Part shown: piece after piece, positions 2,513 through 7,125 of the stretch | Position numbering within the stretch: position 1 is the first letter of the stretch | Layout: each line of letters starts with the position of its first letter | Origin: Clostridiales bacterium | GTDB lineage: Bacteria; Bacillota; Clostridia; Christensenellales; Aristaeellaceae | DNA length: 64,000 bases | Assembly (NCBI GenBank): GCA_015056085.1 | Contig: SVHA01000008.1 | Coordinates: 1-64,000, forward strand | Direction of reading: 5' to 3' | The notes under the pieces: generated by a model | Seen by the model: only the letters and a program-made list of their open reading frames with translations | Databases searched by the model: none | What the model was told of the DNA's origin: nothing | Position numbers and translations under genes: made by a program

Positions 2513-2541
2513 AGCATAGCACTATTCTTAATGTTTGTCAA
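2513..2541 (-). promoter_or_regulatory. Promoter of the DUF2975-HTH operon
   Basis: Minus strand -35 TTGACA (2536-2541), 17-nt spacer, -10 TATGCT (2513-2518). CATTAA-containing repeats surround it (see the finding on the divergent control region). Confidence 0.6.
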
Positions 2542-2576
2542 TCTATTTTTAATGTTCTGCATTAAATATAATGCGT

Positions 2577-2605
2577 TTGACATTAAAAATATTTCGCGTT
2601 ATAAT
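2577..2605 (+). promoter_or_regulatory. Promoter of the nitroreductase gene
   Basis: Perfect consensus -35 TTGACA (2577-2582), 17-nt spacer and -10 TATAAT (2600-2605), 28 nt before the start codon. Confidence 0.8.
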
Positions 2606-2632
2606 AATGAAAACAGCAAGGGAGGGTTTGTC

Positions 2633-3391
2633 ATGAATGAAATGGAGTATCAAATGATCTTCAAACGAAAGTCCTTTCATTTATTCAAGGACATCGGGCA
2701 TCTATCGGATATGGAACTGGCTCAGATTGAAGAAACCTTTCATTCCTGCCGACCACTGTTCCCGCAAATCAAAGTAGATATGAAGATCGTTCCAGCAAAT
2801 CAGACCACCTGCAAGCGGGGACAGGAATACTGCATCTTGCTCTACAGCGAAAAGAAGGAGGGGTATCTCCCCAATATCGGATACATTGGGGAGCAGTTGG
2901 ATCTGTATCTTGCTTCTCGGAATATCGGTGCCTTGTGGTTTGGGATCGGCAAAACAGAGGAACAGTCCCATAACGGTCTGGATTTTGTTATCATGATCGC
3001 CATTGCGGAAATGCCCCAGGACAAGTTCCGAAAGAATATGTTCAAGAGTAAGCGGAAATCGCTGGATGAAGTGTGGCATGGCGAGTATTACAACAATATC
3101 GGCAATATCGCCCGGTTCGCTCCCAGCGCCTGCAATACACAGCCATGGATCGTTGAAGCGACGCAGACAGGGCTGTCTGTTTACAGATACAAGAAGCTCG
3201 GAAAGCGGGGCATCATGCCTGCCGCAATGGTGACGCACTATAACAGGATCGATATCGGCATCTTTCTGCTGTTCCTGGAATTATGCCTGAAGCACGAGGG
3301 GATCGGCTTTGAAAGGACCCTGATGTCCGATACCGGCGATGAAGAAAAGACCGTGATTGCAATATATCAGCTCCAAGATCCCAAATGTTAA
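2633..3391 (+). CDS. Nitroreductase family protein (TM1586-type)
   Basis: Protein of 252 aa resembling the TM1586-like nitroreductases: fused half-domains with RKSFHLFK near the N-terminus, the LDLYLASRNIGALWFGIGKT segment (~85-110) and the ARFAPSACNTQPWIVEA flavin-binding segment (~155-172; compare the PSaxNxQPW motif). It probably binds FMN and reduces small electrophiles; the substrate is unknown. The ATG at 2633 has GGAGGG 6 nt upstream. The gene has a strong promoter and is divergent from the DUF2975-HTH pair, which may regulate it. The ORF is open further upstream, but no other start has a binding site. Confidence 0.75.
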   Translation: MNEMEYQMIFKRKSFHLFKDIGHLSDMELAQIEETFHSCRPLFPQIKVDMKIVPANQTTCKRGQEYCILLYSEKKEGYLPNIGYIGEQLDLYLASRNIGALWFGIGKTEEQSHNGLDFVIMIAIAEMPQDKFRKNMFKSKRKSLDEVWHGEYYNNIGNIARFAPSACNTQPWIVEATQTGLSVYRYKKLGKRGIMPAAMVTHYNRIDIGIFLLFLELCLKHEGIGFERTLMSDTGDEEKTVIAIYQLQDPKC

Positions 3392-3523
3392 TTTCCGTTG
3401 CGGAATTGCAAGGTGAAATCGGTAGACTATATGCCCACTTCCCGCTATGTTTTCTGAACTACTTGGTTAATTTCTTTATTCACTCTGATTCTACCTTATC
3501 CACCAATAATTGCGCAGAATTTT

Positions 3524-3579
3524 CTATTGTGGACGATAACTGGGCTATTGTGGACGATTGCAGTAAACGTCCACAATAG
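3524..3579. repeat. Three-copy CTATTGTGGACGAT motif with hairpin
   Basis: CTATTGTGGACGAT occurs at 3524-3537 and again at 3545-3558, exactly 21 bp apart. The inverse CGTCCACAATAG at 3568-3579 pairs with the second copy as a 12-bp perfect stem. It may be a protein-binding site or a recombination site; nothing fixes its role. The rest of 3392-3640 shows no convincing gene. Confidence 0.6.
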
Positions 3580-3642
3580 GGAGGGTTTTAAGGAAAAAAG
3601 TAGAATTTTAGCAGAAAAAGTTCCCCAGATAAAGAGAAAAAA

Positions 3643-3671
3643 GGCCGGACAGGGTCAATCCCTATCCGGCC
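3643..3671 (-). terminator. Intrinsic terminator-like hairpin
   Basis: A 12-bp stem with one mismatch (3643-3654 with 3660-3671). It is followed on the minus strand by TTTTTTCTC. It could end transcription coming leftwards from tRNA-Trp, or be a leftover of lost genes. Confidence 0.6.
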
Positions 3672-3767
3672 AAATGACGCCGTATATTCGATTTCTTGCG
3701 CCATAAGGGTTACTTTTGTCGCTATAGCCCTATATTCTGACGCTTTATCAGTCTATAAGTGCAAAAA

Positions 3768-3804
3768 TAATCACCCATGCTTTGTATCAAAACATGAGTG
3801 ATTA
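3768..3804 (-). terminator. Original terminator of tRNA-Trp, now displaced
   Basis: Stem of 3768-3778 with 3794-3804 (one mismatch) followed on the minus strand by ATTTTTGC. It directly abuts the displaced tRNA-Trp 3' repeat (3807-3859). Before the element inserted, this would have been the tRNA terminator. Confidence 0.65.
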
Positions 3805-3806
3805 GG

Positions 3807-3859
3807 TGGCAGGGGCAGAAGGACTCGAACCCTCAACAAAGGTTTTGGAGACCCACGTG
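3807..3859 (-). repeat. Left attachment repeat (displaced 3' part of tRNA-Trp)
   Basis: These 53 bp are identical to 5085-5137, the 3' part of the intact tRNA-Trp gene from the anticodon arm to the CCA end. After one mismatch a further TACC also matches, then the sequences diverge. This is the typical scar of tyrosine-recombinase integration into a tRNA gene. Confidence 0.9.
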
Positions 3860-3874
3860 GTACCGCTTGAAATA

Positions 3875-3903
3875 TTGACACAGTTTGTGTGTTGGTGTAT
3901 ACT
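3875..3903 (+). promoter_or_regulatory. Promoter of the chimeric recombinase gene
   Basis: -35 TTGACA (3875-3880), 17-nt spacer, -10 TATACT (3898-3903), starting 15 bp inside the left attachment repeat. It would transcribe the signal-peptide/integrase fusion. Confidence 0.75.
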
Positions 3904-3982
3904 CTTCAAAGAAAAAACCTTGAGATTGTGGATAATATGTTCAATGAAGTTGTACAGCAATTTGAGAAAGGAAGGAATTGGT

Positions 3983-5044
3983 ATGAAGAAGGTGTTTGCA
4001 TTTTTGCTGGCTGTGATGCTACTGACAAGCGTTGCCTGCGCATGGGCAGAGGGAACGACCGAAGAAGCGGTTGAAATTACCTTTCAGGGTATTCCGTGGG
4101 GCAGCAGCATAGAAGAAGTAACAAGCTGGGCAAAAGAGAATGGATTTCAGAGCGTTTATATTGGGTCGACCTTCTCAACTGCATCATTTCTGGATGACAG
4201 GCTGATTACATCCATCAAGGCTCTGAAAGGGTTTGAAATCGCTTCTATGCCTATTGATGCGATAACTGCTGTGGATATTCAAAGGTATGTAAATGACCTT
4301 GCAAAGCGCGGATATGGGCTGTCTACGATCAAGAAGCAAATGCGGATCGTAACTGCACCGCTGAAACAGGCGGCTGCTCTGCACCTGATCCCGGCGAATC
4401 CGGCAGTCGGAATCCGTCTCCCGGCACGAAGTAACATTCGCCAGACAAACCAGAGCGCGGAAGCCTATTCGCCGGACGAACAGCACGCCTTGAATGAAGT
4501 GCTTGCCACGATGGAACGGAAAGGCTATGCCGCAATTTCACTGATGCTTGAAACGGGTTTGCGTGCCGGAGAAGTGCTCGCGCTGCGCTGGAGGGATATT
4601 CAGCTATCGCGGCGGAGGCTCATTGTTCGCGCAACGGTTGTGAGATTGGCAAACAAAAAACAGTCCTATGTGCAGGACTGTGCGAAAAGTGAAAGCAGCA
4701 ACCGAACAATACCGTTAACGCCTGCGGCTGTTTCGCTCTTGGCTGGATTACAGGAACGGCAGCAGAGCGAATGGGTCTTTGTGGGGGATGACGGCCAACG
4801 GCTTTCCTATGAAGCCTTACGCTATCAAACGCAATGCTTGTGCAGGGAGGCAAACGTGGAATACCGGGGCGAACACGTCTTTCGGCACACCTTTGCGACG
4901 AACTGCTATTACAAGGGCATAGATATTAAAATTTTATCAAATTTGCTCGGTCACGCCGATGTGAACATAACATACAACATTTATGTGCATTTATACGGCG
5001 ACGGCTTTGAAGCAATGTACGATGCTCTTGTGAGAAATACATAA
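3983..5044 (+). CDS. Chimeric protein: secreted-protein N-terminus fused in frame to a tyrosine recombinase
   Basis: Protein of 353 aa with two unrelated parts. Residues 1-~25 are a signal peptide (MKKVFAFLLAVMLLTSVACA, then WAEG) and ~26-85 continue as a small secreted-type domain (ITFQGIPWGSSIEEVTSW). From ~95 (PIDAITAVDIQRYVNDLA) to the end it is a phage-type integrase: the core-binding domain without its first part, then the catalytic domain with Arg (TGLRAGEVLALRW), HxxR (HVFRHTFATN), His (LLGHADVNIT) and the Tyr nucleophile (YNIYVHL), all present. The AP2-like arm-binding domain is missing. The ATG at 3983 follows AAGGAAGG. It is the only gene between the tRNA-Trp repeats, so a deletion probably joined an element cargo gene to int. 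Whether the protein is exported, inactive or still a recombinase is unknown. Confidence 0.8.
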   Translation: MKKVFAFLLAVMLLTSVACAWAEGTTEEAVEITFQGIPWGSSIEEVTSWAKENGFQSVYIGSTFSTASFLDDRLITSIKALKGFEIASMPIDAITAVDIQRYVNDLAKRGYGLSTIKKQMRIVTAPLKQAAALHLIPANPAVGIRLPARSNIRQTNQSAEAYSPDEQHALNEVLATMERKGYAAISLMLETGLRAGEVLALRWRDIQLSRRRLIVRATVVRLANKKQSYVQDCAKSESSNRTIPLTPAAVSLLAGLQERQQSEWVFVGDDGQRLSYEALRYQTQCLCREANVEYRGEHVFRHTFATNCYYKGIDIKILSNLLGHADVNITYNIYVHLYGDGFEAMYDALVRNT

Positions 5045-5047
5045 AAA

Positions 5048-5078
5048 GAGAAGCAATTCTTTGTCAGAACTGCTTCTC
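5048..5078 (-). terminator. Terminator shared by recombinase gene and tRNA-Trp
   Basis: An 8-bp perfect stem GAGAAGCA/TGCTTCTC (5048-5055, 5071-5078), with TTTTTATG on the minus strand. It lies 6 nt before the tRNA-Trp 3' end in the direction of tRNA transcription and directly after the recombinase stop. The element thus brought a replacement terminator for the tRNA it split. Confidence 0.8.
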
Positions 5079-5084
5079 TCGCTT

Positions 5085-5158
5085 TGGCAGGGGCAGAAGG
5101 ACTCGAACCCTCAACAAAGGTTTTGGAGACCCACGTGTTACCATTACACCATGCCCCT
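5085..5158 (-). tRNA. tRNA-Trp (anticodon CCA), CCA end encoded
   Basis: Read on the minus strand: acceptor AGGGGCA pairs with TGCCCCT, discriminator G, and the CCA end is encoded (5085-5087). The D-arm GTGTAATGGTAACAC, anticodon loop with CCA in GTCTCCAAAAC, and T-arm GGGTTCGAGTCC are all present. Bases 5085-5137 are duplicated at 3807-3859 as the other half of the integration scar, so the intact tRNA gene now has its 3' half from the element. Its promoter is at 5180-5208. Confidence 0.95.
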
Positions 5159-5179
5159 TTGTTCTTGCGAACATGAGGT

Positions 5180-5208
5180 ATTATACTGCACAAACGGCGG
5201 ATTGTCAA
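5180..5208 (-). promoter_or_regulatory. Promoter of tRNA-Trp
   Basis: Minus strand -35 TTGACA (5203-5208), 17-nt spacer, -10 TATAAT (5180-5185), a perfect consensus. Confidence 0.85.
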
Positions 5209-5336
5209 GGGGGATTTGCGCATTTTAGTGCGATTGCGGAAAAATCAGCGGAAAAATGGGAAAGGCGGGCCTGTTTTCCGGATTTCATGAAGGCAGCGGA
5301 TTTTTTGCGGAATGGCCCCCCTTTCCGGGAAAAATG

Positions 5337-5345
5337 TGGTATACT
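5337..5345 (+). promoter_or_regulatory. Extended -10 promoter of the oxidoreductase gene
   Basis: TGGTATACT fits the extended -10 form, 37 nt before the start codon. No good -35 is visible. Confidence 0.45.
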
Positions 5346-5382
5346 GGGGGCATCAGGATTCATCCGCAGAAGGAGAAGCGCC

Positions 5383-6360
5383 ATGATTCGCTTTGCGACC
5401 ATCGGAACCAATCAGATTGTGGACAAGCTGCTGGCTGCGGCGGCCCACTGCCCTGCCCTCGTTCATTCGGCGGTGTATTCCCGCCGGGAGGACACCGGCG
5501 CCGCTTTTGCCTTAAAGCACGGCTGCAGCCGGGTTTTCACCAGCCTGGAGGCCCTCGCCAGTGACCCGGACATCGATGCGGTGTACATCGCCAGCCCCAA
5601 CCTGTGCCACAAGGAGCAGGCTCTGCTGATGCTGCAGGCGGACAAGCACGTTCTGTGCGAAAAACCTATCGCCCTGACGGCGGCAGACTTTGAGGAGATG
5701 CTTTCTGCCGCCAGGGAGCATCACGTCGTGCTGATGGAGGCCATGCGGCCGCTCCATGCGCCGGGTCTGCAGACCGTGCAGGAACTGCTGCCCCGGCTGG
5801 GGAAAATCCGCCGGGCGACGCTGCAGTTCTGCCAGTATTCCAGCCGGTATGACAAGTTCCGGGCAGGCATTGTGGAAAACGCCTTCGACCCCTCGCTGGG
5901 CAACGGTGCGCTGATGGACATCGGCATTTACCCCCTGCAGGTGATGGAGGCGCTGTTCGGCCTGCCCCGGCAAATGACGGGCGCATCGGTGTTTCTGCCC
6001 ACCGGGGTGGACGGCGAAGGAACGCTGCTGGCGGCCTATGATGAGATGCTGTGCGAGGTGGTGTACAGCAAAATCACCCAAGGGCAGACGCCCAGCCAGA
6101 TTCAGGGGGAAGACGGCGTGCTGCTGATCAGCGGCGTGAACTGCATTACGGAAGTGACCCACCTCCCCCGCCGGGGTGAAAAGACGGTTTATCAGGTTGA
6201 TTTGCCCAATGGCGGCGACATGGTGTGCGAACTGGAATCCTTTGTGCGGCAGATTGAAAACGGCGGCATGGAGGAAGAGTGGATCGCCCACAGCCGGAAT
6301 GTGATGGCGCTGCTGGACGACGCAAGGAAAATGATGGGGATTGATTTTGTGAGGAAGTGA
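5383..6360 (+). CDS. Gfo/Idh/MocA family NAD(P)-dependent oxidoreductase
   Basis: Protein of 325 aa with an N-terminal Rossmann fold (MIRFATIGTNQIVDKLLAA; the glycine loop is GTNQI rather than GxGxxG) and the family dinucleotide-binding segment HVLCEKPIALTAADFEEML (~89-107), where EKP carries the catalytic-site Lys. The C-terminal half (NGALMDIGIYPLQVMEALFG, ~185-204) is the usual substrate-binding sheet. Substrates of the family are sugars, inositols and related polyols; the specific one cannot be told. The ATG at 5383 follows AGGAGAAGCGCC; the upstream extension of the reading frame reads into the tRNA promoter and is not real. A second member of the family lies at 13919-14899. Confidence 0.85.
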   Translation: MIRFATIGTNQIVDKLLAAAAHCPALVHSAVYSRREDTGAAFALKHGCSRVFTSLEALASDPDIDAVYIASPNLCHKEQALLMLQADKHVLCEKPIALTAADFEEMLSAAREHHVVLMEAMRPLHAPGLQTVQELLPRLGKIRRATLQFCQYSSRYDKFRAGIVENAFDPSLGNGALMDIGIYPLQVMEALFGLPRQMTGASVFLPTGVDGEGTLLAAYDEMLCEVVYSKITQGQTPSQIQGEDGVLLISGVNCITEVTHLPRRGEKTVYQVDLPNGGDMVCELESFVRQIENGGMEEEWIAHSRNVMALLDDARKMMGIDFVRK

Positions 6361-7125
6361 CCAAAGGGCTTCGCCCTTTGGAATCCCTATGCGGGGCTTT
6401 GCCCCGCACCCCAGCAGGGGCTCTGCCCCTGCACCCCGGTCGGGGGCGCTGCCCCCGACACCCCCGCAAGGGCCATTGGCCCTTGACCCATTACCCCAAG
6501 CCCAGATGGGCTTGGGGGATTTTTATTGAGGGGGATTTTCCTTTGCTTATTGTTCGGACAACTATCATCAGAGGGGACTCCGAAGGGGTCCAGGGGGAGA
6601 TCGGAAAGCCCCCTGGTTGCTGCGGGGAAAACGTGCAACAGGTATCGGATTAGAAACGGATCATCCTATATCCAAGGTGGGGTTTCGCCCTCATGGGTGA
6701 CCAAAGAGCTTTCCGATCGCCCGACTCCGCTTCGCTCCGGAAACTCGCCTTCGGCGACTGCCCACTGGGCAGTTCGTTTCCTTTGGAAACCTTCGGGTCC
6801 CCTTCGGATGAAGGGACTTTAGCGTGCTTGTTGAGGAAACGGTTTTCGTAGTTCCGGCAAAAACTACTCACAAGGATGCAGGCCGAAGGGGTCCAGGGGG
6901 CGATCGGAAAGCCCCCTGGTTGCTCCGGCAAATATAAGTCGATTCCATAAGACTACCCAAAAACAAAACCACCCCGGAAATCCTTCAGGATTTCCGGGTG
7001 AAGGGTCAAGGGCCAATGGCCCTTGCGGGGTGCAGGGGCGGCGCCCCTGCGGGGGGTCCAGGGGGCATAGCCCCCTGGTGGGGTATCGGGGACGAAGTCC
7101 CTGACCAGGGGCGGAGCCCCTGCCA
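6361..7125. repeat. Non-coding block of stacked hairpins and dispersed repeat modules
   Basis: No gene is supported in these 765 bp. From 6361 to 6515 perfect short palindromes follow one another (around GGGCTTCGCCC, GGGGCTTTGCCCC, GGGGCTCTGCCCC, GGGGGCGCTGCCCCC, GGGCCATTGGCCC, AAGCCCAGATGGGCTT). Bases 6494-6625 recur in inverted orientation at 19571-19706. The module GAAGGGGTCCAGGGGG ... AGCCCCCTGGTTGC appears at 6583-6623 and 6885-6925 and again three times in 19.7-20.1 kb. Hairpins at 7010-7125 run up to the dnaK stop codon and could help end its transcription. Reading frames through the block encode only repeat-derived Pro/Gly/Arg-rich peptides. Confidence 0.8.

Follow-up and report, generated by a model that had tools for sequence, protein, structure and literature searches.

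A probable deletion remnant of a phage- or satellite-type integrating element at tRNA-Trp, and single-gene units shared between genera at the same locus

Positions 1 to 64,000 of contig SVHA01000008.1, from a Clostridiales bacterium (GenBank assembly GCA_015056085.1; genome G000 in our set), form the stretch of DNA analyzed here, which we call the window. Near its start, a 1,278-bp unit is bounded by a displaced fragment of a tRNA-Trp gene and by the intact gene itself. We conclude that this unit is most probably the internally deleted remnant of a phage- or satellite-type integrating element and part of a wider system at the tRNA-Trp genes of this Clostridia family. A sequence-only reading had described the unit as holding a promoter, one recombinase-like gene, and a terminator. 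A promoter-like site, one long open reading frame (ORF), and a hairpin are indeed present; the ORF, however, is not a plain recombinase gene. It is the sole long ORF between the repeats (ATG at 3983, stop at 5042–5044, 353 amino acids [aa]) and is an in-frame fusion of the start of a secreted protein to an N-terminally truncated tyrosine recombinase.

Both halves of the fusion have separate relatives. For residues 1–48, G000 itself encodes a paralog (G000:C21) with 48% identity over 48 aa and a match at the DNA level as well, and the first 47 aa are 49% identical to the product of a secreted-protein gene immediately upstream of an intact integrase in locus L045. The recombinase part is 69% identical to residues 27–308 of the 310-aa integrase of the congener G009, and the DNA alignment of five relatives to the window integrase gene starts only at position 4194. 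The Pfam core-binding domain matches the G009 protein at 28.8 bits (profile positions 2–92 of 98) versus 17.3 bits (27–95) in the window, where the match falls below the cut-off of 22.3 bits. In L057, at 84% over 401 bp, and in L060, at 94% over 204 bp, similarity is confined to the 3' portion of the integrase gene. An AlphaFold model of the fused ORF, built with 24 sequences, is of low confidence for residues 1–70 but of high confidence over most of the recombinase, in which alignment places all of the active-site residues (Arg, Lys, His-x-x-Arg, His, and Tyr). In L045, the secreted-protein gene and the intact integrase directly behind it share a strand, and L047 has two secreted-protein genes upstream of its integrase; given this gene order, a deletion between neighboring genes would be the simplest origin of the fusion. 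Such an event would have removed the remainder of the element and left the first ~70 codons of the secreted-protein gene reading directly into the integrase, in frame, at about its codon 28, with both attachment (att) sites surviving.

The repeats and their anchor are as the sequence-only reading had them. The direct repeats are exact over 53 bp at a spacing of 1,278 bp, and similarity reaches 58 nucleotides (nt) at 98% (3807–3864 and 5085–5142); 200 shuffles of positions 3000–6500 gave no exact direct repeat longer than 15 nt, which places the observed repeat far above chance. The right copy forms the 3' part of the intact tRNA-Trp gene that ARAGORN finds, and in an Rfam scan the tRNA was the sole match above threshold (60.7 bits). 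The supposed terminator is also present as a hairpin, but its T-run lies on the minus strand and the structure is therefore first of all the terminator of tRNA-Trp. Related loci carry hairpins at the equivalent position.

Comparison of the locus in relatives supports integration at tRNA-Trp by a tyrosine recombinase, as do the att sites of related phages described below. The predicted empty site, formed by joining the window flanks at the repeat, aligns without a break to intact tRNA-Trp loci of two other genera (L112, 93.1% over 317 bp; L117, 92.1% over 165 bp), and these sites match the repeat edges. The left flank is 94% identical over 411 bp in the congener G009, where it adjoins a larger element: 5.1 kb lie between the flank and tRNA-Trp and encode an integrase, a DEAD-type helicase, a serine resolvase, a CopG-type protein, and small DNA-binding proteins. 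L047 has a 7.4-kb version of the element. On the far side of tRNA-Trp, the G009 sequence has no match to the window, and the two species are therefore not collinear there. Within the 5.1-kb relative, only the small CopG/NikA-like protein recalls mobilization; the window unit has no transfer genes, and its recombinase, although truncated and fused, keeps its catalytic residues. The features of the unit are collected in the table.

Table. Features of the tRNA-Trp unit and its left flank (window coordinates)
Feature	Position	Strand	Basis or remark
Left flank outside the element, noncoding	3443..3806		tRNA-type hairpin terminator at 3768-3804, T-run on minus strand
Left att site: displaced 3' fragment of tRNA-Trp	3807..3859	-	53 bp same as right copy; similarity to 3864
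Promoter-like site TTGACA-N17-TATACT	3875..3903	+	11/12 consensus positions; consensus match only
5' part of secreted-protein gene	3983..4189	+	Signal peptide and ~50 residues, including ITFQGIPWGSS
Tyrosine recombinase lacking its first ~26-28 aa	4190..5041	+	In frame with the preceding part; stop at 5042-5044
Hairpin terminator, 15 pairs	5046..5080	-	T-run on minus strand; counterpart of hairpins ending related units
Right att site: 3' portion of intact tRNA-Trp	5085..5137	-	Repeat comparison, ARAGORN
tRNA-Trp (CCA), anchor of the locus	5085..5158	-	ARAGORN, Rfam

Relatives of the integrase were found in 18 genome contigs, all of them from Clostridia metagenome-assembled genomes and, where a source is named, from animal guts, and in 39 viral contigs, of which 24 match at 42–56% identity over most of the protein. 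Members of the family belong to rumen phages, to 5–7-kb elements resembling satellites, and to decayed units. Behind the viral integrases there is usually a hairpin, and after it the 3' half of a tRNA, which breaks off in the anticodon region. The target in most of the viral contigs is the equivalent part of tRNA-Cys; in L073 and L075, it is tRNA-Trp, whose 3' half ends with GGTTTTGGAGA. L075 has, in addition, a gene for a protein of 2,315 aa, the size of a tape-measure protein, of which a tested piece has no PHROG match. Tandem tRNA-Cys fragments on one contig were not found in 90 genomes. Intact family integrases are ~302–310 aa long and have no arm-binding domain. In that of G009, the core-binding match begins at residue 7 and the catalytic match comes next, which is the architecture of the simple tyrosine recombinases, defined by core-binding and catalytic domains without an arm-binding domain (PMC8138268). 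In that study the class had no associated excision factor (PMC8138268), a property that would suit short att sites.

We posit that the window unit is probably immobile by itself, because its integrase is damaged and is the only close copy of the family found in G000, which is 94.8% complete. The sequence-only reading had allowed that excision could still occur. On paper it could, as both att sites look complete; with no other close integrase copy found in the genome, however, excision would now probably need an enzyme from outside.

The tRNA-Trp loci of relatives hold further decayed or small units. After tRNA-Trp, several relatives have more than one tRNA fragment, each beside a hairpin; what separates the fragments is either a single gene or integrase remnants. 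The stacked single-gene units measure 0.4–1.6 kb, and each ends in a hairpin and a tRNA-Trp fragment. Tandem fragments with integrase remnants are present in L051, L056, L058, and L061, and L228 has an N-truncated integrase beside a cargo gene. Among 78 further tRNA-Trp loci of the family, 64 of which have at least 2 kb downstream, displaced fragments occur in 12 and an integrase match in 13; the reverse-complement control gave 0. The longest fragments approach 60 nt and the shortest have a few nucleotides; those found retain the tRNA 3' end, although the apparent one-sided shortening is partly a detection effect of a search that required this end. A unit whose fragment lost its anticodon side would become fixed where it lies.

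Some units at these loci have features of their own. Next to tRNA-Trp in L051, L061, L171, L181, L195, L245, L248, and L156 are units of 145–162 bp in which the tRNA fragment is broken by a palindromic insert of ~90 bp (GGACTC...CTCTGACGTGCCACTGGCACGTCATTCACT...GAGTCC) that looks like a miniature inverted-repeat transposable element. Small units in L030, L031, L037, and L228 encode peptides with a NELNEEQLDEVTGG-type leader that resemble bacteriocin precursors and weakly match the CTB family; the L031 array includes several versions of this leader peptide. Two complete tRNA-Trp genes, separated by 2.4–4.6 kb, are present in L045, L129, and L132, as though an integration event had regenerated the tRNA in full. 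In L031 (genome G014), the outermost fragment is followed by CTTGGAAACACAATATATAGTGG, resembling the attP arm of phages L073 and L075, and for this reason the array may be separated from tRNA-Trp by a prophage with an integrase of the window family; an intact tRNA-Trp was not seen in the G014 genome.

Single-gene units, which we designate A, B, C, D, E, and SEC-C, recur in differing combinations and orders across genera. Unit A, encoding a 159-aa protein with BspA-type repeats, is present at 82% identity or more in seven genomes of four genera. It adjoins tRNA-Trp in G099 and G244 and stands behind other units in G003, G255, G300, and G084; in G003 and G255, the array falls on two contigs whose overlap lies inside unit A. 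At the DNA level, unit A is 99.1% identical over 339 bp between G003 (g1) and G084 (g30), versus 76.6% for RecA, and 98.7% identical between G255 and G084, versus 84.6% for RecA. RecA served as the host yardstick for the unit A pairs, DnaK being set aside for its paralogs. The cut points lie in tRNA sequence: copies of unit A are similar from the anticodon loop of the left fragment onward, and the hairpin to the left of that fragment, which belongs to the neighboring unit, differs. Between G010 (g1) and G061 (g45), 810 bp of the SEC-C unit are 97.3% identical; the unit ends with the tRNA and retains only TGGCAG at its left border, and its neighbor is a lipoprotein unit in one of these genomes and an integrase in the other. 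In G010, the SEC-C and lipoprotein units make up ~1.2 kb between tRNA-Trp and unit E that are absent in the congener G002. Six of 10 unit proteins scanned have no Pfam match. The genes of units A–E and SEC-C, which lack an integrase, point away from the tRNA, unlike the window unit and the integrases, which point toward it; for this reason the window unit is not a proven cassette.

We weighed several other explanations of the window unit. The sequence-only reading had offered either a deletion remnant of a larger element or a minimal self-contained integrating unit, and it is the former that is supported. A minimal unit, with one active recombinase gene between two att sites, would account for the complete att sites, the promoter, the open frame, and the catalytic residues, but a signal peptide and a stretch of secreted protein stand in place of ~26–28 N-terminal core-binding residues, precisely where model confidence is low. 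The intact relatives are also larger, with integrases of about 302–310 aa, and no second copy of the family was found in the genome, so that we regard an active minimal unit as quite improbable; a self-contained minimal element was rejected as a candidate given the N-truncated, fused integrase. The genomes are mostly drafts, and tRNA repeats disturb assembly, as in the arrays of G003 and G255 that break at contig ends; the fusion could thus be an assembly chimera. This is very improbable, however, given that the join at ~4190 lies outside any repeat and keeps the frame, that the flanks on either side agree with relatives, and that L228 also has an N-truncated integrase by a cargo gene. Mere duplication of a tRNA fragment with no link to integration, suggested by how common such fragments are at the tRNA-Trp locus of the family, is contradicted by the empty sites that match the repeat edges, by the larger integrase-bearing version on the same flank, and by phage attP sites with the same core, and we consider it extremely improbable.

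For the shared units, the competing explanation is ordinary homologous recombination at tRNA-Trp repeats in place of integrase action. Donor and recipient would share tens of base pairs of tRNA at the borders, sharp edges would be expected here as well, and old borders may have eroded after the event. Some borders, such as the TGGCAG of the SEC-C unit, are nevertheless too short for homology, the borders of unit A lie in the anticodon loop like the phage attP sites, and integrases of the family and their remnants reside within the same arrays; we therefore judge this explanation unlikely. Other observations also weigh against our account as a whole. Short homologous recombination at the tRNA repeats could likewise yield sharp unit borders, and unit A in G030 is located away from tRNA-Trp, accompanied by degraded fragments. 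The fused ORF is open, in frame, and has kept its catalytic residues, so residual function is possible, and an unfused parent at the exact window locus was not found among the relatives. The sample contains one genome per species, all or nearly all of them drafts, in which excision within a strain is not visible.

We prefer a deletion remnant for the window unit and suggest the following course for the arrays. New units would enter beside the tRNA, rebuild its 3' half, and displace older units outward, and deletions would reduce units over time. Single-gene units that lack an integrase have crossed genus borders, presumably in circular form, with integrases of the same family acting on them in trans. 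More broadly, and tentatively, we propose that tRNA-Trp in this Clostridia family could be the anchor of an integron-like platform in which single-gene cassettes that lack an integrase are carried within and between genera by a simple tyrosine recombinase of phage origin, with the tRNA 3' half and terminator as attachment site; we place this at somewhat short of an even chance.

The left flank of the window unit has a distribution of its own. Sequence of this type occurs directly downstream of various tRNA genes across the family, in 14 of 50 genera and at up to 92% identity in other genera. It contains inverted repeats (CTATTGTGGACG...), and its copies mostly abut tRNAs for Ser, Lys, Val, Arg, Asn, and Trp and apparently tmRNA. 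It may be a mobile terminator-linked element in its own right. The left repeat was consequently not taken as a plain chromosome edge, the flank being a family-wide tRNA-downstream sequence, although the empty sites still confirm the edge. Just left of the flank is a gene for a TM1586-type nitroreductase (2531–3391), outside the element as far as seen, with genes for a helix–turn–helix protein and a DUF2975-like protein adjacent, near the contig end.

Among known systems, the tRNA-Trp arrays are closest to the accretion of cis-mobilizable elements (CIMEs) and to additive genomic islands, with phage-type instead of ICE-type integrases (ICE, integrative and conjugative element) (PMC7563491, PMC3146451, PMC10872708). 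In Streptococcus salivarius, CIMEs and tandem accretion are described (PMC7563491; Pavlovic et al. 2004, cited through PMC3146451), classical CIMEs being 1.2–13 kb and gene-free microCIMEs 130–220 bp in length in the same sources. Like these, the arrays stack decayed elements that have att sites but no complete mobility genes at one target together with integrase-bearing elements, and the 145–162-bp units are similar in size to microCIMEs. CIMEs, however, derive by definition from ICEs or integrative and mobilizable elements, whereas the integrase family here is that of phages and satellite-like elements, and the units are mostly single genes that cross genus borders. The window unit is flanked by att sites of one integrase type, but its nearest relatives are phage and satellite-like elements; it is thus CIME-like and not classed as a CIME. 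Dehalococcoides ssrA islands, 15 of which are reported without an integration module (PMC3146451), likewise lie in tandem with 3' fragments of a small RNA gene at their borders, but use a serine recombinase and a tmRNA target and carry many genes per island. The additive flexible genomic island of Ca. Methylopumilus has islands from 330 bp or one gene upward that encode mostly unknown proteins; it involves another tRNA and another phylum, and intergenus exchange of the same single-gene unit is not described in the parts of that report covered here (PMC10872708).

Integron cassette arrays resemble the present ones in that single-gene units are exchanged as modules beside a simple tyrosine recombinase, and mobile single-gene cassettes in variable order are seen in units A, B, C, D, E, and SEC-C of the relatives, the window unit itself excluded. 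Membership among integrons fails on the integrase, which scores 57 bits against the integron integrase model TIGR02249 (cut-off 265), and on the att sites: in place of attI and attC, the borders are fragments of the tRNA-Trp 3' half with the terminator hairpin. In addition, the units here seem to carry their own promoters, unlike integron cassettes. By analogy, the wider array appears to work like an integron without being one. The Streptococcus satellite phages (Javan) have the nearest integrases among named phages (31% identity) and share tRNA targets and satellite-like parents of 5–7 kb with the present elements, but no packaging or helper-interference genes were recognized in the 5.1-kb element of G009 (L027); named phages and plasmids have no integrase relative at 60% identity or more. 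Tycheposons also target tRNAs but are described as 4–200 kb in size. Targeted searches of open-access papers turned up no account of exactly such an arrangement.

The window unit matters mainly as a lead to a locus at which single-gene units have moved between genera. The exchanged genes are mostly of unknown function and include those for BspA-like repeats, bacteriocin-like leader peptides, a SEC-C protein, and lipoproteins. If phage and satellite integrases do act on these units in trans, integron-like gene exchange would have a second and simpler route, and the tRNA-Trp locus would be a place to seek recently useful genes in ruminant gut bacteria.
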